From: Eubacteriales bacterium OttesenSCG-928-K08
Lineage (GTDB): Bacteria; Bacillota; Clostridia; Christensenellales; CAG-138
Direction: 5' to 3'
Length of the DNA stretch: 36,800 nucleotides
Assembly (NCBI GenBank): GCA_030266105.1
Contig: JAJDHH010000013.1
Span: 1 to 36,800, forward strand
Position 1 is the stretch's first letter. Every line of letters begins with the position of its first letter. The notes under the pieces were generated by a model. That model was not told the DNA's origin and made no database searches. It worked only from the letters and a program-made list of their open reading frames with translations. Both the position numbers and the translations under genes were made by a program. Below, piece by piece: positions 9,131-28,610 of this stretch.

Positions 9131-9823
9131 ATGAATAACCAGCAAGAAGAAAAAATCAGAATATTGCTCGTTGAAGATGACGCTACTATCGCCACCCAGA
9201 TACAGCGCACGCTTGAGGCCCGTGGTTTTCAGGCCACATGCGCACGCGATTTTTCTGCCGTTATGGAGACTTTTGAAGCATTTGACCCCCAGCTTGTGCT
9301 TATGGACATTTCATTGCCTCAATATAACGGCTATTATTGGTGCTCACGCATACGTGAAAAAAGCGCTGTCCCTATAATTTTCATATCTTCTCATAACGAG
9401 GATATGGATATTGTGCTCGCCATGCAAATGGGTGGTGACGATTACATCACAAAACCTTTTTCGATGGATGTGCTAATCGCAAAAATTCAGGCGGTGCTGC
9501 GCCGCACAAACGGCGCCATGGACTTAGAGCCCGGCTTTTGTGGTGCCACGCTCAGCGTTGCAAAAAGCTGCGTTTGCTTTAACGGGCAAGAGGTTGAATT
9601 AACCCGCAATGAGCTTCGCATACTTCAAACGCTGCTTGAAAAAAAGGGTGCGGTCGTATCGCGTGATTTGCTTATGCAGCGCCTGTGGGACACCGACGAG
9701 TATGTTGACGATAACACGCTTAGCGTAAATGTCAACCGCCTTAGGAAAAAGCTTGGGCAGCTTAATCTGCAGGACTGCATCGCCACCAGAAAGGGCGAAG
9801 GGTACATTTTGAATGATACGTAA
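9131..9823 (+). CDS. OmpR-family response regulator, BceR-like
   Basis: A 230-residue two-domain regulator. The receiver domain (about 9-120) has the acidic pocket LVEDDA, the phosphorylated D59 in LVLMDISLP, and K108 in DDYITKPF. The winged-helix DNA-binding domain (about 135-228) ends with the RLRKKLG and RKGEGY segments typical of the OmpR family. It overlaps the histidine kinase gene by 11 bases and lies upstream of an ABC transporter with a BceB-like permease, the standard arrangement of peptide-antibiotic sensing modules. It most likely activates the transporter promoter at 10851-10878. A weak AGGT site precedes the ATG, so its translation may depend on the preceding gene. Confidence 0.93.
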   Translation: MNNQQEEKIRILLVEDDATIATQIQRTLEARGFQATCARDFSAVMETFEAFDPQLVLMDISLPQYNGYYWCSRIREKSAVPIIFISSHNEDMDIVLAMQMGGDDYITKPFSMDVLIAKIQAVLRRTNGAMDLEPGFCGATLSVAKSCVCFNGQEVELTRNELRILQTLLEKKGAVVSRDLLMQRLWDTDEYVDDNTLSVNVNRLRKKLGQLNLQDCIATRKGEGYILNDT

Positions 9824-10790
9824 ATACATATCCTACAGAAAACCTCTGTTCTTTTTCACTTTACTGGTTAGCGTGCTTAGCTGTTCGTTCTGGTGGCTTA
9901 ATGATGCACCAACACAGGATATTCTCTACAGCCTGTTGCTTATGATCGCAGCGCTTATACTAATTACCGTGCCGGATTGCTTTTTGTTTATCCTGCGCTA
10001 TAAAGAGCTAAATCTGCTCAAGCAAAACATTGCCAGGTTTGAGCAGGAGGTTCCCGAAGGGAACAATGCCATTGAGCAGACATATGCCAAAATTGCCATA
10101 GGATTGCTTGAGCGCCTGCGAAACGACACGGATAAACTCGACCATATGCACCGCAGGGATGTTGAATACTACACTATGTGGATGCACCAAATAAAAACTC
10201 CGCTTTTTGCTCTGCGCCTGTTGATCGAAAATGGTTCTGCAACTGATGCGCAGCTAAGCCACGAGCTTTTTGAAATTGAGCGCTATGTTGAAATGGCGCT
10301 TTCTTATGCTCGTGCAACACGCTTGGAAAACGATATCGTAATTACATACTGCAATGTTGAAGAAATACTTCGAAAAAGCATACGAAAATACGCCCCACAG
10401 TTTATCTCCAAAAATTTGCGTGTTGAAATTGAGGGTGGCGACTTATATGCGCATACGGATGAAAAATGGCTTGCTTTTATATTGGAGCAGCTTTTATCAA
10501 ACGCCGCAAAATACACACATTCAGGCGGGCTTACGGCCCGCATGCTTGAAGGCGCGCTGGTGCTGGAAGACACAGGCATAGGCATACTCCCGCAGGATTT
10601 GCCACGCGTATTCGAGCGAGGATTTACTGGCTTCAACGGGCGTGTGGATCAGCGTGCCAGCGGGCTTGGGCTTAGCATGGCCCGCCGTGTAGCGAAAGCT
10701 CTTAATATTTCCATCCAACTCGAAAGCGAATACGGCAAGGGCACAAAAGTGATTTTGCGTTTGCCGCAGGACGGATTGATGTTTGAATAG
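9813..10790 (+). CDS. Intramembrane-sensing histidine kinase, BceS-like
   Basis: A 325-residue membrane kinase. Two N-terminal transmembrane helices (about 12-29 and 38-62) are joined by a loop of under ten residues, leaving almost no external sensor. That is the hallmark of BceS-type kinases that sense through their partner transporter. The H-box is MWMHQIKTPLF (H125). The ATPase domain shows QLLSNAAKYT (N-box), DTGIGI (G1) and GLGLSMARRV (G2). The gene starts inside the end of the regulator gene (11-base overlap), so the pair is translationally coupled. It should phosphorylate the adjacent regulator when the BceAB-type transporter engages a peptide antibiotic. This function is taken from the family, not shown here. 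Confidence 0.92.
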   Translation: MIRKYISYRKPLFFFTLLVSVLSCSFWWLNDAPTQDILYSLLLMIAALILITVPDCFLFILRYKELNLLKQNIARFEQEVPEGNNAIEQTYAKIAIGLLERLRNDTDKLDHMHRRDVEYYTMWMHQIKTPLFALRLLIENGSATDAQLSHELFEIERYVEMALSYARATRLENDIVITYCNVEEILRKSIRKYAPQFISKNLRVEIEGGDLYAHTDEKWLAFILEQLLSNAAKYTHSGGLTARMLEGALVLEDTGIGILPQDLPRVFERGFTGFNGRVDQRASGLGLSMARRVAKALNISIQLESEYGKGTKVILRLPQDGLMFE

Positions 10791-10878: not shown

Positions 10879-10925
10879 TACCGGGCGGTGGCAAAATAAA
10901 ACCGCCGCTATGTTTGGAGGTAACA

Positions 10926-11717
10926 ATGGAACTTTTAAAAATTGAAAACGTAAAGCGGATTTATAACACAAAGCTTGGCTTTAGCCAATGCATCGCGCTC
11001 AGTGGCGTTAGCTTTGAGGTCGCCGCGGGCGAGTTCGTCTCCATCATGGGGCCTTCGGGCAGCGGAAAAAGTACGCTCCTGAATATAATCGCCTCGCTTG
11101 ATAAACCCACCTCAGGAGATGTTTATCTTGATGGCCGCGGCGTAAAAAACATTCCCGAGCGCGAGCTTGCCGCTTTTAGGCGGGATAACCTTGGTTTTGT
11201 TTTTCAGGAGTTTAACCTGTTGGATACATTCAGCGTACGGGATAACATACTCTTGCCGCTTGTGCTATCCAACATGCGCGTTGGCAAAATGCAATCCAGG
11301 CTTGCGCCAGTTGCTCAATCGCTTGGCATAAGCCACCTGCTTGATAAATTCCCATTCGAAATATCCGGCGGCGAAAAGCAGCGCACAGCTGTTGCGCGCG
11401 CGATTATCACAAACCCGAAGATCATTCTGGCGGATGAGCCAACCGGCGCGCTGGACACTCGCTCTTCCACAAACCTATTAGAGTTGTTCTCTTCATTAAA
11501 TAAAAGCGGCCACACATTGTTGATGGTTACGCACAGCGCCATGGCCGCAAGCTACGCCTCCCGCGTGCTGTTTATACGCGATGGCGAGCTGTTTAATCAA
11601 ATATACCGCGGGGCTGATAATAACCGCACATTTTACGAGCGCATCGTTTCAAACCTCACCGTGCTTGAAGAAGAACCGCCGCGCCTTAGCATTGCGGGAG
11701 GAAAAAGCAATGCCTAA
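10926..11717 (+). CDS. ABC transporter ATP-binding protein, BceA-like
   Basis: A 263-residue ATPase of the MacB/LolD/BceA class. Walker A is GPSGSGKST (42-50), the Q-loop lies in FVFQEFN, the signature is ISGGEKQR (146-153) and Walker B is IILADEPTGALD. It ends with a C-terminal tail of about 30 residues beyond the core domain. I place the start at the ATG at 10926, which follows TTTGGAGG; an in-frame upstream start would lie inside the ribosome binding site. The last codons overlap the permease gene by 8 bases. With that permease it should form an exporter-type complex that removes cell-wall-targeting peptides (such as bacitracin) from their lipid targets and reports flux to the kinase. The exact drug is unknown. 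Confidence 0.93.
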   Translation: MELLKIENVKRIYNTKLGFSQCIALSGVSFEVAAGEFVSIMGPSGSGKSTLLNIIASLDKPTSGDVYLDGRGVKNIPERELAAFRRDNLGFVFQEFNLLDTFSVRDNILLPLVLSNMRVGKMQSRLAPVAQSLGISHLLDKFPFEISGGEKQRTAVARAIITNPKIILADEPTGALDTRSSTNLLELFSSLNKSGHTLLMVTHSAMAASYASRVLFIRDGELFNQIYRGADNNRTFYERIVSNLTVLEEEPPRLSIAGGKSNA

Positions 11718-13440
11718 AAACCTGTATTTGCGGCTGGCCATAGCAAATGTAAAAAGAAGCCGCGAGGTGTATGTGCCATATTTTATCGCTGCGACAATCA
11801 TGAGCTGCGTATATTTTTTGATTTTGTCGCTGATATTCTCTACAAGCATCAAAAATGTACCAGGCGGTGAAACCGCAAGATCGGTTTTTATGGCCGGCAC
11901 CGTGGTTTTCACAGCATTTGCATTTGGTTTTATGCTTTATATAAACGCGTTTTTAACCAAGCGAAGAAAAAAAGAGTTCGGGCTTTACAGCGTGCTGGGC
12001 ATGAACCGCCGCCATGTAGCGCGGGTGCTGCGCTGGGAGATGCTTATAATCGTTGGCCTTGGGCTGATCTTCGGAATGCTGCTTGGCATGGTGTTCGGCC
12101 GCCTGGTTTTCCTGCTGCTGCTGCGCGCAATGCGCGCAACCGTGGAGGGAAGCACATTCCAAATGCCATTTATCGCTTTTATTGGCACCATAGCGCTCTT
12201 TGCCGCCGTGATGATAGGCAACAACCTTTATAATGGCTTACGCGTGCGTATCGTGAATGTCGTTGACCTTTTGCAAAGCGATAAGCGTGGCGAAAAGGAC
12301 TCAAAGCTTGTTATTCCCGCAGCAATTTTAGGATTGTTGCTGTTGGGCGGCACATATGCGTTTGTTTTGATTAACGATGATCCTTATTTTGCCCTTGGTG
12401 TGTTTTTCCCTGCCGCGTTTGTGGTTATAATAGCAACGTTTTTGCTGTTTTACTCAGGCAGCATCGCGCTTTTGCGCCTTTTGCGCAATAACAAAAACTT
12501 TTACTATAAAAGCGGGAACTTCGTTGCGATATCCGGCATGTTCCACAGGATGCGGGTAAACGCACGTGGCCTGGCCAGCATATGTGTGTTTTGCACGATG
12601 CTGCTTGTTACTGTGGCGGGCGCAAGCTCACTCTACTTTGGGCAGGAGCAGATTGCAAGAACAAACAACCCTTATGACGCATACGTTGCATTTACCTACG
12701 ATCATGATGAGGAGCTTGATGAATTAGAAAACCAGAAACGACTTGATAACACCGTGCACGAGCTGGTTGCCCAGCTTGACGCGCTGGCTCTGGCGCACAA
12801 TGTGCAGCTGCAGGGCAAACTTGATGATCGTGTGCAACCTTCGCGAGGTTATTTGCAGCCCGGTAAGGTTACTTATGCGCCTGATGATGCCCCCATCCAG
12901 TACGTTAATTCCGTATTGTTAGGCAATTCCTTGTATATGGATGTTATGGGTAAAGCAGCCGATGCTGAAGCGTTCTGCAAGGAAATAGAAAACATTCCTA
13001 ATGTGATTTGGACTAACAGCATCTATGAAGCACGACAAGATGGTTACGGCGCTTATGGTGGGCTTTTATTCCTGGCTGCATTTTTTGCGATACTCTTCTT
13101 AGTGATGATGGTCATGATGATTTATTTTAAGCAGATCACCGAGGGTAGCGAGGATAAGGAACGCTTTGCCATCATGCAAAAGGTCGGCATGAGGAGCGAG
13201 GACGTTAAATCCGTTGTAAACAAGCAAATTTTGTGGGTGTTTTTCCTGCCGCTTGGTTTGGCAGTGTGCCATATTCTTGCGGCAAGCAAAATCATGATGC
13301 AAATGATTTCCCAGTTTGGCATGTTTGACTACAGCATCACGCTCATGTGCATCGGATTAACAAGCATTGTGTTTGCGGCAATTTACCTAATTGTGTATAA
13401 GCAAACAGCACGGGTTTATTACCGGATTGTTAAATGGTAA
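11710..13440 (+). CDS. FtsX-like ABC transporter permease, BceB-like
   Basis: A 576-residue membrane protein of BceB type. The N-terminal helix pair (about 20-45 and 60-85) flanks an external loop. After EFGLYSVLGMNRRHV, the typical FtsX coupling segment, come further helices, then an external domain of about 150 residues (roughly 330-480) between two membrane helices, then three C-terminal helices with a second coupling segment near FAIMQKVGM. I estimate about ten membrane segments. The external domain is somewhat short beside B. subtilis BceB. The ATG at 11710 overlaps the end of the ATPase gene and has a GGGAGG site. It should detect and displace peptide antibiotics together with the ATPase. 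It is the last gene before a strong terminator. Confidence 0.92.
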   Translation: MPKNLYLRLAIANVKRSREVYVPYFIAATIMSCVYFLILSLIFSTSIKNVPGGETARSVFMAGTVVFTAFAFGFMLYINAFLTKRRKKEFGLYSVLGMNRRHVARVLRWEMLIIVGLGLIFGMLLGMVFGRLVFLLLLRAMRATVEGSTFQMPFIAFIGTIALFAAVMIGNNLYNGLRVRIVNVVDLLQSDKRGEKDSKLVIPAAILGLLLLGGTYAFVLINDDPYFALGVFFPAAFVVIIATFLLFYSGSIALLRLLRNNKNFYYKSGNFVAISGMFHRMRVNARGLASICVFCTMLLVTVAGASSLYFGQEQIARTNNPYDAYVAFTYDHDEELDELENQKRLDNTVHELVAQLDALALAHNVQLQGKLDDRVQPSRGYLQPGKVTYAPDDAPIQYVNSVLLGNSLYMDVMGKAADAEAFCKEIENIPNVIWTNSIYEARQDGYGAYGGLLFLAAFFAILFLVMMVMMIYFKQITEGSEDKERFAIMQKVGMRSEDVKSVVNKQILWVFFLPLGLAVCHILAASKIMMQMISQFGMFDYSITLMCIGLTSIVFAAIYLIVYKQTARVYYRIVKW

Positions 13441-13805: not shown

Positions 13806-14309
13806 TCAGCCTGCTTGTCCGCAGCATTTTTTGTATTTTTTCCCGCTCCCGCATGGGCAGGGATCGTTGCGCCCCACCGTGGTTTCGCGCACATACATTT
13901 TAGAAGAGCGGTGCTCTTTTGCAATTTCCTTGCGACGCTCTTCGCTCAAAAGCCCATCCCATTGATCGAGCGTATACAGCCAATCCGCCTTTGCATCAAG
14001 CATGTTAAAATACAGTTTTTCGAGGTTAACCTCAAGCGAAATTTTGCTGCCAAGCTTTACACTTTCCATATCAAGCTCTTTTTTAAGGCTGGAATTAATG
14101 CCGTCCAAAAAGCCTGCAAACACGACCGGCTCCATCTCAAATGTATCCGCTAGCTCCGCAAGTGTCCCCTTAAAGGGTTCGTTTGGCTGGTCGAGTATTT
14201 TTTTATAGTTTTCAGTCTCCGCATCGAAGTAGGTTTCCCAAAACTCGGTATGCTCTTTTTTGCCGCGTTCCTGTTGGGCAAGCTCGTTCCAATCGCTAAA
14301 TAAGCTCAT
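13806..14309 (-). CDS. SEC-C metal-binding motif protein
   Basis: A 167-residue soluble protein. The C-terminus (about 145-165) is a SEC-C motif, [19 protein letters not shown], with the C-x-C...C-C zinc ligands that SecA also carries at its end. The N-terminal 140 residues are helical and acidic, without a recognised domain; a segment near residues 49-75 ([20 protein letters not shown]) is reminiscent of small clostridial SEC-C proteins of similar length. Its role is not known; the motif can bind zinc and ribosomes or SecB in SecA. AAGGAG precedes the ATG. It follows the Ddl-type gene by 30 bases and is probably the last gene of that operon. Confidence 0.82.
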
Positions 14310-14339: not shown

Positions 14340-15551
14340 TTATTTATGAGCGGGCATCCCGCTTTTTGTTTTTGCACCTTTTGCGCCAACGCCGGAAATA
14401 ACCTTTTCGAGTATCGCCGAATCGTAGGAGAACATCGACGCCTGCTTCTCTGCCTGGGCGGCAAAAGCATATTCCACCAGCTTATTTATAAGCTGCGAAT
14501 AAGGAATGCCAACCGGCTCAAAAAGATAGAACGCAAATGACCCGGGGATCGTATTTATTTCGTTAACATAAATCGTATCATCGTCCTTATCCACTATGTA
14601 GTCGATGCGGACAACACCTTTGCATTCCAGCATCCTGAATATTTCGCAGGTCGTATCCTGAATATACTTTGTGCGTTCCTCGCCTATGGGCGCTGGAATA
14701 ATGCGCGAAAGTTGCTCCATGCCCTGCCCTTTTGCGTTGCTCAAATACTTTTCATCAAAACCAAGCAGCTCCATATCCGCAGTTGTTACAGGCTGCTCAC
14801 ATGCGGAGGGCAAGCAGTTCTCCCCATATCCAAGCGCTGCGCAGTTGATCTCCTCGCGATTAACAACGGCCTTTTCCACCAAAATGCGCCGATCATAGCG
14901 GGTTGCGACCTCTATGCGGTTGCGCAGGCTTTCACGATCCTCCGCTTTGCCGATGCCTATGCTAGAGCCAAGGTTGGCGGGCTTTACAAACAGCGGGAAA
15001 CCAAGCTGCTCCATATCATCCAGCACACGCTCAGGCTCCTGCTGCCAATAGCTTCTATAACAATACTTTGAGGGCAGCACGTTTAGGCCCATGCTTTCAA
15101 ACACTGCCTTCATTATGATTTTATCCATCCCCACGCCGGAGCCTGTTACCCCCACGCTGGAATATGGGATATCCGCCATTTCAAAAAGACCCTGTATGCT
15201 TCCATCCTCACCGTGCATACCATGCAGAGCTAATATGGCGCAATCTATATGCGCTATCTTTTCATCCGCCTTTTGAAAAAAGCCGCCTGTACGCTGCGCA
15301 TAAAGCCCATTCATTCCGGGAACTGGTGGTAAATACACCTTTGTCAGCCCCTTTGCGGATGGATCAAACGCGCGGTAGAATTTCATGCTGTTAAGCGGCT
15401 GGCCCACAAACCATTCGCCTGTGCGCGAAATGTAGACCGGATAAGGATCGAACTTGGATTTATCCACATTTTCAATCAACTGCATACCTGAAATTATTGA
15501 AACATCATGTTCAGCCGAACGGCTGCCAAATATAACCGCCAACTTTTTCAT
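14340..15551 (-). CDS. ddl: D-alanine--D-alanine ligase family protein (divergent clade)
   Basis: A 403-residue ATP-grasp enzyme that joins two D-amino acids for peptidoglycan. It begins KLAVIFGSRSAEHDVSIISG, the standard Ddl entry motif. FVKPANLGSSIGIGKA (ATP-binding) and INCAALG follow. The metal-binding end is VNEINTIPGSFAFY, whereas classical Ddl proteins have EVNTxPGxT; the residues after PG differ. It is also longer than typical Ddl (about 300-370). The D-Ala-D-Ala call is the default, but a different second substrate cannot be excluded from sequence alone. The ATG at 15551 has a GGAG site; a longer in-frame extension upstream lacks similarity. The MurF-like gene that would consume the dipeptide ends 37 bases upstream. 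Confidence 0.85.
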   Translation of the reverse strand: MKKLAVIFGSRSAEHDVSIISGMQLIENVDKSKFDPYPVYISRTGEWFVGQPLNSMKFYRAFDPSAKGLTKVYLPPVPGMNGLYAQRTGGFFQKADEKIAHIDCAILALHGMHGEDGSIQGLFEMADIPYSSVGVTGSGVGMDKIIMKAVFESMGLNVLPSKYCYRSYWQQEPERVLDDMEQLGFPLFVKPANLGSSIGIGKAEDRESLRNRIEVATRYDRRILVEKAVVNREEINCAALGYGENCLPSACEQPVTTADMELLGFDEKYLSNAKGQGMEQLSRIIPAPIGEERTKYIQDTTCEIFRMLECKGVVRIDYIVDKDDDTIYVNEINTIPGSFAFYLFEPVGIPYSQLINKLVEYAFAAQAEKQASMFSYDSAILEKVISGVGAKGAKTKSGMPAHK

Positions 15552-15588
15552 AGGGACGCTCCTCTCCTCTTTGCGCAATTCTTCTAAC

Positions 15589-17229
15589 TTATTCGCCGCT
15601 GTAGTTATCCGGCAGGTCGTTTTCGAACAAAACAACGCTGCCCGGCGGCGCATATTGGGGCAGCATCTTAGTCACCTGCGCCAGGTTTTGTGCGCGCAGA
15701 ATGTTCCCCTCATCAAAACCTGCAGCAATAAGCCCGCGAAAAATTGGCTCCACGCGCTGCTGGCCAACTAAAATCACCACATCTGCGGCGCTTGCAATAT
15801 CCTTGCCAAATGCCTCGTTAAGCGCCTCTTCCTCATCGCCCAGCTCAACCATCCCGGGGGTGACCACAACGCGGTTTGCAGGCGCAAACGCGCGCAAAAC
15901 CTCCATGGCTGCTTTTGTGCCTGCTGGGTTTGCGTTAAACGCATCGTCAATCACGGTAACAGGGCCCTCAATGAGCTGCAGCCTATGCTCCACCGGCTGC
16001 ACATTGGAAATTCCAGAGGCGATCTGCTCCAATGTCAGTCCCATATGTTTTGCGACTGCCGCAGCACCAGTTATGTTTAGTATGTTGTGCTTGCCAAGCA
16101 AAGAGGTTTTGCACTCCACCCGCTCTTTGCTCGATGTTTCCAGAGTAAATGTGCTGCCTTGCTTTGTTACTCGCACATCAGTTGCCCGCAAAAACAGCTC
16201 ACCCTCATAATCCAAACCAAACAGATATTTGTTTTTTAAATTGCAATTCTCGTACATTTGCCTGCAATCTTCATTATCGCCATTCAAAAAGGCAGCGCCG
16301 TCTTCCGGCAGCCTGAGCAAAAGCTCCGATTTTGTTTTAATCACGTTCTCGTAAGAGCCAAAAGTATCTAAATGCTGCTTGCCCACTGAAGTGATTATCC
16401 CATATGTCGGCTGAACAAGATCGCATAACTCATCGATATCGCCAGCGTAACGCGCGCCCATTTCAGCGACAAACGCCTCGTGTCCGGCTTCAAGCTGCTC
16501 ACGAATAACTCGGGTGATACCCATGGGCGTGTTAAAGCTTTGCGGGGTCACAAGCGTATTAAATTTTTCCTGTAAAATTGTACCCAGAATAAACTTTGTG
16601 CTGGTCTTGCCATAGCTTCCGGTAACAGCTATCTTAATGATATCCTCCCTTGCCTGAAGTTTACGTTTTGCATCATTAAGATATCTGTTTTTAACGGCAT
16701 TTTCAATCGGTAGCGCAACGCAGGCGCACAGCAACACAAACGATGGAAGCATCAGGCCGGGAAGATAGCGCAGAATGTTCATCGTAATTAGCAATGGAAA
16801 TGTAGTGTAAGCTTTTGTCGTGAACAGATTGACATTCATGTGGAAAAGAAAGCTTAAAACCGCCAGTATGGCCAGCAAGCGTTTAACGCGGCTTGTGTAC
16901 ACTATGGGCTTTTTTTGTTCCGCGCGCTTTCGGTTGCTAATGCTCAGATACACCATCGCCGCAATGTAGAGCACATCGCAGCCATAAAGCAAAATTGTGC
17001 TAATAACAGCACTATCATGATACAGCAGCATCCATGCCATTCTAAGCAACATCGCCGCAGCGCCAAAAAGCATGCAGGTCAGCACATCGTTTTTACCCGC
17101 ACGCCTAAGCCACTTTACATACATATTCCCCTGATAGCTTTCCAGCTGAAGCATATGCACATAACGAAGCGAGGCAACTACAACGGCCCCCGCACCCAAT
17201 ATTGAAAAAATTATATCAAAAGTTCTCAT
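15589..17229 (-). CDS. MurF-like Mur ligase with an N-terminal membrane domain
   Basis: A 546-residue protein, about 90 longer than cytoplasmic MurF. Residues 1-180 form about five or six membrane helices (around 6-25, 49-70, 75-97, 116-134, 142-156, 157-176). The Mur ligase begins near 196: P-loop VTGSYGKTSTK (202-212), then EMGARYAGDI, NGDNED, the substrate segment LLGKHNILNITGAAA and VIDDAFNANPAG. It ends LFENDLPDNYSGE. MurF adds D-Ala-D-Ala to UDP-MurNAc-tripeptide; here the ligase appears tethered to the membrane. It lies between an alpha/beta hydrolase gene (19 bases upstream) and the Ddl-type gene. It may be this organism's MurF or a second, specialised enzyme; the window cannot tell. 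Its start has only a weak GGATGG site. Confidence 0.85.
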   Translation of the reverse strand: MRTFDIIFSILGAGAVVVASLRYVHMLQLESYQGNMYVKWLRRAGKNDVLTCMLFGAAAMLLRMAWMLLYHDSAVISTILLYGCDVLYIAAMVYLSISNRKRAEQKKPIVYTSRVKRLLAILAVLSFLFHMNVNLFTTKAYTTFPLLITMNILRYLPGLMLPSFVLLCACVALPIENAVKNRYLNDAKRKLQAREDIIKIAVTGSYGKTSTKFILGTILQEKFNTLVTPQSFNTPMGITRVIREQLEAGHEAFVAEMGARYAGDIDELCDLVQPTYGIITSVGKQHLDTFGSYENVIKTKSELLLRLPEDGAAFLNGDNEDCRQMYENCNLKNKYLFGLDYEGELFLRATDVRVTKQGSTFTLETSSKERVECKTSLLGKHNILNITGAAAVAKHMGLTLEQIASGISNVQPVEHRLQLIEGPVTVIDDAFNANPAGTKAAMEVLRAFAPANRVVVTPGMVELGDEEEALNEAFGKDIASAADVVILVGQQRVEPIFRGLIAAGFDEGNILRAQNLAQVTKMLPQYAPPGSVVLFENDLPDNYSGE

Positions 17230-17248
17230 ACTTGTACCATCCCACGAA

Positions 17249-18019
17249 TTACTGTCCGCCCTGCCCTAAAAAAACCCTCAGCACCGCGCAAAATTGCGGA
17301 TAGCGCTCCGCATAACTAAAATGACCTGCACCCTCAATCCGAACCAGACCCGCATCGGGTATGAGCTTTTCCATCATCTCGCCCATGTATAGCGGAGTCG
17401 ATGTATCTTGCGTGCCCCAAACAAGCAGCGTAGGGTTCTTAATGTGCTTTAGTCTATCCTTCAAATCGAGATTCACAACCTTAACAAACACCGCACGCAT
17501 CAAATCGCTTTTGAGCGCCTTATAATCCTCAGAGCCTGCATTTTTCCGGCGTTCGCTCAGATGGAACAGCTTATCTATCCACCTGACTTTTGAAAGCAGC
17601 TTCCCCAGCTTATATGTATATGTGCGCAAATACCATTTTAATGTGCGCCTCGGTCGAATGCCCGCAGCATCCACCAGCACCAGCCTGTTAAAAAGTTCCG
17701 GTTCTTCGCTTGCAAGCGCTATTGTGACCCGCCCGCCAAATGAATGGCAAACAACATCGCAGCCTTCTATATTAAGCGCTTTGATAAACGCACGCGTGTT
17801 TTTAGCATACTCAGGCACGCCCCAAACCTCGGGCGGCTCCTGGCTTTTTCCAAAGCCGGGAAAGTCGAGGGATATGGCGCGCTTTCCCAGGCGCTCCACC
17901 TCATTGGCGATGCACTGCATCGCCTCAACGCTGGCCATCCAGCCGTGTAATATCAAAACGGGAGCACCCTCCCCCTGCTGTGTGTAATGCAGGGAAACGC
18001 CCTCAACCGTAACAAACAA
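17249..18019 (-). CDS. Alpha/beta hydrolase
   Basis: A 256-residue soluble hydrolase. HGW near residue 25 is the oxyanion-hole motif, CHSFGG holds the nucleophilic serine (about S93), WGTQDTSTP carries the acid, and EGAGHFSY the catalytic histidine. A helical cap of about 60 residues (roughly 125-185) separates the two halves. The most likely start is a TTG at 18019, preceded by AGGGGAG at good spacing, since the sequence from there fits the family. It heads a unit with the MurF-like and Ddl-type genes and has its own promoter upstream. A role in cell-wall peptide or lipid metabolism is suggested only by these neighbours; the substrate is unknown. Confidence 0.85.
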   Translation of the reverse strand: MFVTVEGVSLHYTQQGEGAPVLILHGWMASVEAMQCIANEVERLGKRAISLDFPGFGKSQEPPEVWGVPEYAKNTRAFIKALNIEGCDVVCHSFGGRVTIALASEEPELFNRLVLVDAAGIRPRRTLKWYLRTYTYKLGKLLSKVRWIDKLFHLSERRKNAGSEDYKALKSDLMRAVFVKVVNLDLKDRLKHIKNPTLLVWGTQDTSTPLYMGEMMEKLIPDAGLVRIEGAGHFSYAERYPQFCAVLRVFLGQGGQ

Positions 18020-18070: not shown

Positions 18071-18100
18071 ATTATAGCTTGCATCACACTAAGCGCGCAA
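18071..18100 (-). promoter_or_regulatory. Promoter of the hydrolase-MurF-Ddl unit
   Basis: TTGCGC, 18 bases, TATAAT on the minus strand, in the 69-base gap after rimI. The -10 match is perfect and the -35 partial. Confidence 0.55.
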
Positions 18101-18568
18101 CTGCCTAATCTCTTTTTCAATATCCATGTTCCACAACACCAGCGCATCCTCATCCGTATCGGAATAGTATTTTTTTCTGCGCCCTGCTATTGTAAAGCCC
18201 AGCTTTTCATACATCGCCTGCGCTGCAATGTTGCTCTCGCGCACCTCAAGCGTCATCTGCCGGGCGCCTTTGTCGTTGGCATCCTCCATGGCAAAAAGCA
18301 TTATTTTTCTTCCCCAGCCCTGCCTGCGGTATTGCGGAAGCACCGCAACATTCGTCACATGCGCTTCCCTTAAAATAAGCCACATGCCGATGTATCCCAT
18401 CAACGCACCATCCGGCGCCTCCAACACAAAATAGCGGGCAACAGCGTTCTTTAGCTCAGAATAAAGCATGTTCTTTGTCCAAGGGGAACGAAAACAGATG
18501 CTTTCGATTTCCGCAACGCCGGGAACATCCTCTTTCTTCATTTTCCTAAATAGCGGTTCCTTTTGCAT
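18089..18568 (-). CDS. rimI: Ribosomal protein S18-alanine N-acetyltransferase (RimI-like GNAT)
   Basis: A 159-residue GNAT acetyltransferase. The acetyl-CoA pyrophosphate loop is RRQGWGRKI (81-89), preceded by the beta-4 strand AHVTNVAVLPQYR. It ends with the family features LEVRESNIAAQAMYEKLGF and GRRKKYYSDTDEDALVLW, typical of RimI (the C-terminal YYxxxxEDAxVM segment). RimI acetylates the N-terminus of ribosomal protein S18. The ATG at 18568 has a GAGGA site; the upstream in-frame extension overlaps tsaB and has no site. It follows tsaB after 22 bases, the common Firmicute order tsaE-tsaB-rimI. A tsaD gene, often next, is not in the window. Confidence 0.92.
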   Translation of the reverse strand: MQKEPLFRKMKKEDVPGVAEIESICFRSPWTKNMLYSELKNAVARYFVLEAPDGALMGYIGMWLILREAHVTNVAVLPQYRRQGWGRKIMLFAMEDANDKGARQMTLEVRESNIAAQAMYEKLGFTIAGRRKKYYSDTDEDALVLWNMDIEKEIRQLRA

Positions 18569-18590
18569 GGTATTCCTCACCCTGTTTGTA

Positions 18591-19264
18591 CTATTCCTGA
18601 TTGCGCTTTTCCCACATGCGTTCAGCCTGCGAAACACGAAGATAAAGCGGCTCCGCCTGCTGTGTGCCATCAACCTCTCCGCTTTGCAGGCGCCGATGAG
18701 CAATATAACAAAGCGAGCCTGCGCGGCAGAACATGCTTGCTGCTGGAGCGATCGTTGCGTTTGCCGCGGATTTGCGAATTTGCGCTTCGTATTGAATTGC
18801 GCCATCCCCAACAAAAATTGTCCCTTCAGGAACATCTTTTAAGCACTGCTCAACAGTAAGCGCAACCGGCGGGCGCACAACCTCGCCGAATTTATACTGC
18901 GCTGTATAAACGCTATCGTTTCGCGCATCGATCATCACGCAAACATTTCCGGGATAGAATGCAATATTCTCATTCAGGCAAAGCAGCGAATTTATCGAAA
19001 TCACCGGAATGTTAAGCGCAAGCCCCATGGCGTTTGCAATACAAACGCCAATACGAACGCCTGTGAAAGATCCCGGGCCACAGTTTACTGCAAGCGCTGT
19101 AAGTTCATTTGGTGCAAACCCGCATTCCTCCATAAGCGCCTGCGCCATAGGCAAAAGCGTTTTGGAATGTGTGCGCGTGCTATGCAAGGAACGCTCCGCA
19201 ATCAGCTCACCATTGGATAAAACAGCGACCGATGCAGTCGCGCTGGATGATTCAAACGCGAGTA

Positions 19265-26516: not shown

Positions 26517-27014
26517 CTACTGTTGATCCTCCGGAAGCAAGCCCTTCCTCGTCAGGTTGATTTTGCCCTGCTTATCAATTTCAGTTACGCGCACGAGGAT
26601 TTCATCGCCAATGTTAACAACATCCTCAACCTTTTCCACGCGCTTATTATCAAGCTTTGAAATGTGAACTAGGCCATCCTTGCCAGGAGTCAGGTTAACA
26701 AAGGCGCCAAATGTCATTATGCGCACAACCCGGCCCAGGAACACATCGCCAACCTCGATATCTTTAACAATGCCATCGATGATCTTTTTCGCTTCATCCG
26801 CAGCCGCAGCATCCGGCGAGGCGATAAAAACGCGGCCATCATCTTCAATATCGATCTTTACGCCGGTATCAGCAATGATTTTATTGATAGTTTTGCCGCC
26901 CGAGCCAATAACATCCCTGATTTTGTCGGGGTTAATGCTAAACGAAATGATGCGCGGGGCATACGCCGAAAGCTCCTTGCGGGGCTCCGGCAAGGTTTCG
27001 AGCATTTTGTCCAA
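26517..27014 (-). CDS. pnp: Polynucleotide phosphorylase, C-terminal fragment (KH and S1 domains)
   Basis: This 165-residue fragment continues pnp in the same frame after the internal TAG. It holds the KH domain (about 27-80; [17 protein letters not shown] with the GxxG loop) and the S1 RNA-binding domain (about 92-160; [31 protein letters not shown]). It has no catalytic residue. The frame is open back to the TAG at 27039-27041; the sequence [12 protein letters not shown] just after the stop is native PNPase, so the join is exact. A separate product could begin at TTG 27014 or ATG 27005, with only a weak GGCAGG upstream. Otherwise this part is made only by read-through. Confidence 0.85.
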
Positions 27015-27038: not shown

Positions 27039-28610
27039 CTATTCCAGCGCACGGGTGAGAATTTTTTCATCAATGCCCTTGATTTTGATATCCATCTGGA
27101 TCGCCGTGATGCCATCCTTTGTGCCGGCAACCTTAAAGTCCATGTCGCCAAGGAAATCCTCAAGGCCCTGAATATCTGTCAAAACAGCGATGTTTCCATT
27201 GTTTTCGTCCTGAATGAGGCCCATCGCAACACCGGCAACCGGCTTTTTCAGGGGTACGCCAGCATCCATGAGCGCCAGCGTGCTTGCGCAAACCGAAGCC
27301 TGGGATGTGCTGCCGTTGGAGCTTATCACCTCAGAAACAAGGCGCATGCAATATGGGAACTCCTCTTCGCTTGGAAGCATTGGCTCAAGCGAACGCTCAG
27401 CAAGCGCACCGTGGCCGATTTCTCTGCGGCCGGGGCCACGCATCATGCGGGTTTCACCCACGCTATAGGGCGGCATGTTGTATTGGTGCATATAACGTTT
27501 GGTTTCCTCAAGCGACAAACCATCCAACATCTGAGCCTCTCCGATTGTGCCCAATGTGGCAATTGTCAGCACCTGTGTTTGCCCGCGTGTGAATACGCCG
27601 CTGCCATGTGTGCGCGCAAGCACACCCGTTTCGCACCATATGGGGCGAATTTCGTCATGCTTTCTTCCATCGGGGCGAATGCCCTTGTTTATGATTTTGT
27701 CACGCACGACCTCTTTGGTCATGGAATACAATATCGCGTCAATATCCTTTGCACTCTCAGGGTATTCCTCGGCAAAGGCGGCAATCGTTTCTTCTTTCAC
27801 CTGCGCGGAGCGCAATTCGCGTTCCTTACGATCGAATGTATCGAGCGACCATACGACTTTGTCAGCCGCATATTCGCGCACCTTTTGCAAAAGTGTTTCT
27901 TCCGGCGCGTGGATGTTCACTTCGCATTTGGGTTTGCCAACCTCAGCGGCGATGCCTTCAATAAAAGTGACTATCTTTTTAATTTCTTCATGGGCAAAAA
28001 GAATGCCATCGAGCATTTCCTTTTCGGAGACTTCATTTGCGCCCGCTTCAACCATCATAACCGCATCGCGCGTGCCTGCAACGGTCAACTGCATAACGCT
28101 ATTTTCGCGCTGATCGCAATCGGGGTTGATTATATATTCCCCATCCACAAGGCCAACGTTTACTGAGCCTGTAGGCCCCATAAACGGCGCATCGCTTATG
28201 GATAGAGCTATTGATGAGCCAATCATGCCCAGCACATCGGGCGTAACATCCTGCTCAACGGAGAGCACGGTCGCCACAACCTGCACATCTTTATAAAAAC
28301 CTTTGGGAAACAGCGGGCGCAGCGGGCGATCGATCAATCTCGAAGTGAGCACTGCCTTTTCGCTCGGCCTGCCCTCACGCTTGATAAACCCACCGGGGAT
28401 TTTACCCACGGAATACATTTTTTCTTCAAAGTCGCAGCTAAGGGGGAGAAAGTCCACACCATCGCGCGCGGTTTTAGCGACTGTCGCGCAGGTCAGCACC
28501 GCGGTATCGCCACAGCGAACCAGGCAGGAGCCGCCCGCCTGCTCGGCATACTTCCCCGTTTCTACAATTAGTTTTCTGCCGCCTAGCGACATTTCAAATG
28601 TTCTTTCCAC
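27039..28610 (-). CDS. pnp: Polynucleotide phosphorylase, N-terminal catalytic part ending at an in-frame TAG
   Basis: The 523 residues cover both RNase PH domains and the helical linker of PNPase (phosphorolytic 3'-5' exoribonuclease, usually about 700 residues). Landmarks are [12 protein letters not shown] (first PH domain), [31 protein letters not shown], and [20 protein letters not shown] with the catalytic acids. The reading stops at a TAG where homologues have CAG (Gln) in ALEQARxGRLFI. The frame continues for 174 more codons. The core is intact, but KH and S1 are cut off. Start: GTG at 28610 with AAGGAG seven bases upstream. It may be a real nonsense mutation, a recoding site or an assembly error. 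Confidence 0.9.

Follow-up and report, generated by a model that had tools for sequence, protein, structure and literature searches.

The triad at the locus

The stretch analyzed here (the window) is 36,800 nucleotides long and is an entire contig of the draft genome of Eubacteriales bacterium OttesenSCG-928-K08, which amounts to 1.83 Mb in 111 contigs and is 59% complete. On its minus strand lie three adjoining genes, encoding an alpha/beta hydrolase, a MurF-like ligase embedded in the membrane through an N-terminal helical domain (TM-MurF), and a D-Ala-D-Ala ligase (Ddl), their identities backed by both Pfam and NCBIfam (Table 1). They follow tgt-tsaE-tsaB-rimI and are themselves followed by the gene for a SEC-C protein; tsaE and tsaB scored above their curated cutoffs. 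The usual view of MurF is of a soluble enzyme that walled bacteria have in common and that can serve as a target for antibacterials. We concluded that the triad very probably does the cell's housekeeping work at the final peptide step in making the wall precursor, replacing soluble MurF and Ddl.

Table 1. The triad, the parts of TM-MurF, and the bordering genes (positions in the window)
Feature	Position	Strand	Details
Alpha/beta hydrolase	17249-18019	-	256 aa; partner of TM-MurF; Pfam Abhydrolase
Membrane-embedded MurF-type ligase (TM-MurF)	15589-17229	-	546 aa; Pfam domains only Mur_ligase_M and Mur_ligase_C
TM-MurF N-terminal helical membrane domain, residues 1-177	16699-17229	-	Hydropathy, alignment, PF01225 in 0/51
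TM-MurF catalytic part, residues 198-546	15592-16638	-	P-loop GSYGKTS, K300, DDAFNANP, C-terminal ENDLPD
D-Ala-D-Ala ligase, Y type (INTIPGSFAFY)	14340-15551	-	403 aa from ATG at 15551; NF002528
rimI, end of tsaE-tsaB-rimI, conserved left border	18089-18700	-	TIGR01575, 130 bits, cutoff 86
SEC-C protein, right border	13806-14309	-	NF004088 (NCBIfam match)

A helical membrane domain in place of the UDP-binding domain

Hydropathy placed five hydrophobic segments before residue 178 of the window's TM-MurF (residues 3-21, 49-67, 75-93, 115-136, and 157-175), and an AlphaFold2 model (mean predicted local distance difference test score [pLDDT] of 91, predicted template modeling score of 0.88) had helices across residues 2-193. 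The same simple count gave 3 to 8 segments among 51 TM-MurF sequences, so the exact number of helices is uncertain. Lysine and arginine residues were unevenly spread over the loops, with 4, 7, and 7 in residues 24-50, 96-116, and 174-200 versus 0 and 1 in residues 66-76 and 132-145, and by the positive-inside rule the N terminus would therefore lie outside and the ligase part inside. The most conserved residues of the membrane domain stand in the predicted cytosolic loops, with R117 at a loop edge: Q28, Y32, K107, T112, R114, R117, and P174 were kept in all 51 sequences and H25 in 49. A first-pass annotation of this DNA, which had called for a topology prediction, had placed ligation at the membrane, and the helices favor that placement. 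It had also read the protein as a MurF-like ligase with some 180 extra helical residues. The helices are real, but they are not extra: the N-terminal uridine diphosphate (UDP)-N-acetylmuramic acid (MurNAc)-binding domain, PF01225, was found in none of the 51 TM-MurF sequences versus all 23 classical MurF sequences, that of E. coli included. Thus, the helical membrane domain replaces the classical N-terminal domain and is not an addition to a complete MurF; structure comparison barely covered residues 1-177.

The ligase core of TM-MurF

Residues 198-546 correspond to the middle and C-terminal domains of Mur ligases, and a profile comparison aligned residues 189-535 with classical MurF (TIGR01143; E. 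coli 1GG4, A. baumannii 4QF5, T. maritima 3ZL8), which has both domains in common with TM-MurF. The nearest solved folds were MurF, with a Foldseek E value of 1.1e-25 to 4QF5 and, by VIA-align to 3ZL8, a Z score of 39.3 over 371 residues at a root mean square deviation of 3.9. The P-loop, K300, and N432 and N434 of the NANP motif, elements shared with classical MurF, were kept in 51/51 TM-MurF sequences, and we take the lysine to stand at the carbamylated position of Mur ligases. The two types differ elsewhere, TM-MurF having NTPMG where most classical MurF proteins have GNxNNxxG and ENDLPD where they have K-x-S. ENDLPD was exact in 47 of the 51, with N537 and D538 in all of them, whereas the K and S columns were invariant in the 23 classical proteins and KxSR was exact in 15/23 of these versus 0/51 TM-MurF sequences. 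In MurE, a loop glutamate (Glu-460 in S. aureus, Glu-468 in E. coli) is reported to help keep the incoming residue in place (PMC3829189), and by analogy the C-terminal motif of MurF may be its counterpart. With ENDLPD in place of K-x-S, a nonstandard dipeptide is therefore possible.

These comparisons bear on the idea that TM-MurF is a MurT-like or capsule-type ligase and that an undetected protein performs the MurF step. MurT, which acts with GatD in lipid II amidation, is, like TM-MurF, a Mur ligase without the UDP-binding domain that is tied to a second enzyme; as far as the covered part of a MurT study goes, its substrate is lipid linked, its partner is glutaminase-like, and it has only a short, flexible N terminus (PMC6113224), whereas TM-MurF has a membrane domain. 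The score of TM-MurF on TIGR01143 (238.0 bits) is below the curated cutoff of 288.6, and its C-terminal motif differs from that of classical MurF, both of which suit the idea. However, TM-MurF scored far better as MurF than as MurT (238 versus 42.5 bits, the cutoff for MurT, NF045635, being 800), its nearest folds are those of MurF, Ddl adjoins it in 53/80 loci, and it and classical MurF nearly exclude each other, with the murF slot itself occupied in one genome (L154, below). We consider this idea very unlikely.

In a tree of ligase domains, rooted on a single MurE since the MurE sequences formed no clade in the tree as first read, the 51 TM-MurF sequences were one clade (support, 0.88), apart from the 23 classical MurF sequences (0.96). 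TM-MurF thus differs from classical MurF in lacking the UDP-binding domain, in having a membrane domain instead, in its own hydrolase partner, and in forming a separate clade. Its loci occurred in records named Clostridia, Erysipelotrichia, Alicyclobacillus, Kyrpidia, Planctomycetes, Thermodesulfovibrionales, Treponema, Bacteroidetes, and Rhodothermus; because most of these records are metagenome bins, single odd taxon names may be binning errors. TM-MurF matches in several genomes (e.g., G015, G036, and G053) carry one internal stop codon, perhaps because the alignments run beyond the gene end. Across the titles and abstract openings of the open-access literature, with subscription papers and preprints outside the search, we found no description of a membrane MurF; a paper on Bulleidia extructa presents MurF trees in Erysipelotrichia and, in the parts covered, mentions neither a membrane domain nor a hydrolase (PMC12786226).

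The Ddl and hydrolase partners

The window Ddl scored 292 bits on the Ddl subfamily NF002528, above the cutoff of 262. Among 58 Ddl proteins from TM-MurF loci (53 adjacent to TM-MurF, 5 elsewhere in the fetched stretch), residues E15, H63, K97, K144, S150, E187, K215, Y216, R255, D257, E270, and N272 (E. coli DdlB numbering) were kept in 57 or 58, including the K215-Y216 pair, which we take to be associated with amino-acid acceptors. Unlike the Ddl family otherwise, all 58 had Y in place of S281, a residue that presumably contributes to binding the second D-Ala by its carboxylate and that is S in 25/26 DdlB-type proteins, and all 58 had S in place of M277. The changed acceptor end that the first-pass annotation had read from the motif INTIPGSFAFY, present in the window Ddl, was thereby borne out. 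A DNA pattern for NTIPGSxxFY occurred in 15 of 299 genomes of the phylum, all among the 18 with TM-MurF and within ~1.4 kb of it, and in 0 of the 281 classical-only genomes; a reversed control pattern gave 0, and the pattern missed three TM-MurF genomes (G278, G421, and G530). Among the best 25 of 36 matches, the window Ddl fell below the cutoffs for Van ligases of the D-Lac and D-Ser types, the best being VanG (210 versus 495 bits). Ddl stood directly beside TM-MurF in 53/80 loci, and 23 of the 27 loci without a neighboring Ddl were Erysipelotrichia-type records, Solobacterium and Lactimicrobium included. A second Ddl, nearer the DdlB type, lies elsewhere in two TM-MurF genomes (L034 in G050 and L036 in G058).

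The window hydrolase has the residues Ser93-Asp205-His233 and the cap motif GSxDY, and its AlphaFold2 model had a mean pLDDT of 95; the catalytic residues were kept in 77/78 (Ser), 78/78 (Asp), and 78/78 (His) of the hydrolases. The hydrolase adjoined TM-MurF in 77/80 loci and lay directly before it in 75 by a strict distance rule, which the other two (L092 and L093) failed because the ligase open reading frame (ORF) had been called too long. Two of the remaining loci are at contig ends (L085 and L103), and one has no hydrolase (L126). This last locus, in a Rhodothermus-named record, holds a TM-MurF with neither a hydrolase nor a Ddl neighbor. Since it adjoins TM-MurF in 75/80 loci by the strict rule, as opposed to 53/80 for Ddl, the hydrolase is the tighter partner. 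This linkage agrees with the proposal, made from the window sequence, that the three genes are one functional unit. No such hydrolase was seen in 23 classical ddl-murF loci, 21 of which are only ~3.5 kb and hold little beyond both genes. We rejected assigning a specific function from structure or profile, many different esterases and hydrolases matching about equally.

Near-exclusion of TM-MurF and classical MurF

Among 198 genomes of the window's order, we counted 170 with the membrane type, 23 with classical MurF, 0 with both, and 5 with neither. With the window ligase as the query, 189/198 matched at 1e-22; classical MurF scored above its curated cutoff in 22 genomes, all among the weak matches (1e-34 to 1e-45), and the nine genomes without a match comprised three with a divergent membrane type (G051, G117, and G139), one with a classical fragment (G084), and the five with neither. 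In the phylum sample of 299 genomes, 17 had only the membrane type, 281 had only classical MurF, and 1 (G522) had both. Here 18 genomes matched the membrane profile better than 1e-160, and with the next genome the score dropped from 546 to 278 bits, the match beginning at the ligase domain. Classical MurF was found in 276 genomes at 1e-82 and in six more with split or interrupted genes (282 in all), and three genomes were, by subtraction, without a classical-profile match (G514, G530, and G539). Fisher p-values were 1.4e-25 (order) and 8.3e-27 (phylum), figures that overstate the exclusion because the sampled genomes are related. In the two samples together, 187/188 membrane-type genomes lacked a classical MurF match, the window genome being counted in both. 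Across phyla, none of 34 TM-MurF genomes, picked for spread from the 80 loci, had a TIGR01143 match above the cutoff; one of them (G240) holds a strong piece of classical MurF. The search for a second murF and ddl that the first-pass annotation had proposed turned up neither in the window's own genome, at 59% completeness, where the two weak Mur matches proved to be murC and murE.

The triad in the place of murF

In the window genome, the dcw cluster reads mraZ-rsmH-ftsI-murE-mraY-murD, with a 75-bp gap between murE and mraY and no murF (L146). murE and mraY were likewise direct neighbors in nine more Bacillota TM-MurF genomes (L151, L152, L153, L157, L158, L159, L160, L161, and L164), a subset picked where murE and another mur gene shared one contig. 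In a Thermodesulfovibrionales genome (L154), the order is murE-hydrolase-TM-MurF-Ddl-mraY-murD, the triad standing exactly in the murF slot, so that its place in dcw is one that classical MurF also has.

Within the genus g53, the two types occur in related species. G133 and G155 have tsaE-tsaB-rimI, the triad, a gap or a gene, and SEC-C, the gene before SEC-C in G133 encoding isocitrate dehydrogenase. G063 and G082 have the same neighbors with the isocitrate dehydrogenase gene (90% identical) directly behind rimI and no triad, and both carry classical ddlB-murF elsewhere in the genome. G098 resembles these two in the distance between rimI and SEC-C, with a gene in the middle, and it has a classical murF.

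In the planctomycetes, the replacement of the classical genes appears, from gene remnants, to have been caught partway. Scalindua rubra has the triad, and between its murE and mraY lie only pieces of murF, an N-terminal one of 85 residues (58% identity) and a C-terminal one of 36 residues (72%), both relative to the classical murF of Scalindua sp. P6-7; a 32-residue stretch matching ddlB is also present. In a third planctomycete with the triad, a 30-residue remnant adjoins mraY, and a stretch of 44 residues matches ddlB. By exclusion, dcw position, and empty sites, TM-MurF thus fills the genomic place of MurF, with two dual exceptions.

Several points weigh against this reading. Five order genomes (G092, G118, G209, G217, and G218) have neither type. 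The typing of 17/170 order genomes was made without listed coordinates, from a match and the absence of classical MurF, their helices unseen; two of these low-scoring genomes, G048 and G054, appear in another search. The absence calls in the window's own genome are weak because of its incompleteness. In G522, one contig bears the triad together with a classical murF and a further ddl; in Scalindua sp. P6-7, the triad is accompanied by a classical ddlB and by a classical murF whose two pieces lie at the ends of two contigs. The two systems can therefore coexist. The planctomycete remnant matches are short, with E values from a four-locus database, and the ligase activity of TM-MurF is itself predicted from sequence. 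As a separate observation, G118 and G209, given as 95 and 98% complete, were without a hit at 1e-30 when searched with TIGR01143, a profile that in other genomes picks up MurE as well.

The coexistence of both systems in G522 and Scalindua sp. P6-7 could be taken to mean that the triad is a dedicated side pathway, a second dipeptide system beside normal MurF and Ddl for special wall chemistry or antibiotic tolerance, and the changes in dipeptide-side residues of Ddl and the ligase are in keeping with this. A precedent of sorts is the vanI cluster, which like the triad combines a D-Ala-D-X ligase with a murF copy (murF_I), a copy found in most of the vanI clusters described in the portion covered of the source (PMC4229326). 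However, vanI belongs to the resistance clusters and includes vanX, R, and S, whereas Pfam saw no vanX or vanY domain in the 27 window proteins scanned, which are part of the window's ORFs, and the second murF was not found; the first-pass annotation, too, had read the locus as something other than a classical resistance cluster. The latter's suggestion of a dedicated dipeptide pathway was not supported, and the genomic half of its own refuting condition leans against it, given that searches of the 59%-complete genome gave no second murF or ddl, that its dcw cluster is without murF, and that the types nearly exclude each other. With 187/188 membrane-type genomes giving no classical MurF match and all ten Bacillota dcw clusters viewed lacking murF, we regard a side pathway as very unlikely.

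Neighboring genes and transcription

For Ddl, the listed ORF (437 aa, to 15653) is overlong, and translation probably begins with the ATG at 15551, behind GGAGAGGAG, giving 403 aa. The sequence at 18071-18100, put forward earlier as the promoter of the triad, reads TTGCGC-N18-TATAAT; its first box matches the consensus at 3/6 positions, and it is absent from the list of a consensus promoter scan, so it is a weak candidate. Read-through from tsaE-tsaB-rimI upstream may equally transcribe the triad. We rejected a mobile cassette, since a plasmid search at 1e-40 gave no match. A response regulator and a histidine kinase form a two-component pair (9131-10790) some 3.5 kb from the triad. Next to the pair are an ABC transporter ATPase and an ORF of 619 aa reading as a membrane permease (10914-13440), an arrangement known from modules that sense and export peptide antibiotics. 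In a polynucleotide phosphorylase ORF (27039-28610, 523 aa), Pfam at 1e-8 showed neither the KH nor the S1 domain usual at the C terminus; a frame change may have left the remainder in 26517-27014.

Proposed mechanism and implications

In the pathway we propose, Ddl would make a D-Ala-D-Ala-type dipeptide, as its kept catalytic residues suggest, and TM-MurF would join it to the tripeptide stem, a role indicated by its fold, its kept catalytic residues, and above all the genomic replacement of classical murF. Ligation would occur at the inner membrane face. The hydrolase, whose linkage is observed, would serve TM-MurF in a putative role, perhaps editing or unmasking. The substrate of TM-MurF may be polyprenyl-diphospho-MurNAc-tripeptide, MraY acting before MurF, and we give housekeeping replacement together with this lipid-linked substrate a probability of about 0.5. 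It is the likeliest substrate because the domain that grips UDP has given way to a helical membrane domain whose basic loops are conserved, and we infer it also from two published findings. MurT, without the UDP-binding domain, acts on lipid II, and the authors of that study argue that the membrane would probably leave no room for this domain (PMC6113224). MraY of B. subtilis is reported to use a precursor analogue whose peptide is only L-Ala-D-isoGlu (PMC4987650), and with this tolerance of short peptides the action of MraY before MurF is feasible.

The main rival, which also counts against that substrate, is the same replacement with TM-MurF acting on soluble UDP-MurNAc-tripeptide, the membrane domain being a tether near MraY for channeling and UDP being bound elsewhere. 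An ordinary murE is present, the triad of L154 lies between murE and mraY, and the ligase core aligns with MurF in its middle and C-terminal parts, all of which a tethered enzyme would accommodate. However, the UDP-binding domain is missing in 51/51 sequences, and the conservation of the loops (K107, R114, and R117 in 51/51) exceeds the needs of a plain anchor. We consider such tethering plausible but doubtful.

On the lipid-linked pathway, the C-terminal end may also be different or masked, because the S281Y change in Ddl and the change of K-x-S-R to ENDLPD in the ligase accompany the membrane type; editing or unmasking such an altered end may be the task of the hydrolase, a partner that is almost always present. 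We regard as unlikely the combined claim that the stem peptide is finished on the lipid carrier, once MraY has acted, and that the dipeptide added is other than plain D-Ala-D-Ala.

Classical MurF has apparently been discarded by most genomes of the window's order (170/198) and by scattered members of other groups. If TM-MurF works on a lipid-linked tripeptide, the order MurC-D-E-F-MraY is not fixed, and the textbook order of wall synthesis would be changed in many bacteria. Pathway searches for classical MurF would then miss or misname the step, and inhibitors of classical MurF might act differently on TM-MurF bacteria. The swap within genus g53 and the genome G522 offer natural comparisons of both systems, and the hydrolase, as a nearly obligatory partner, is directly testable.

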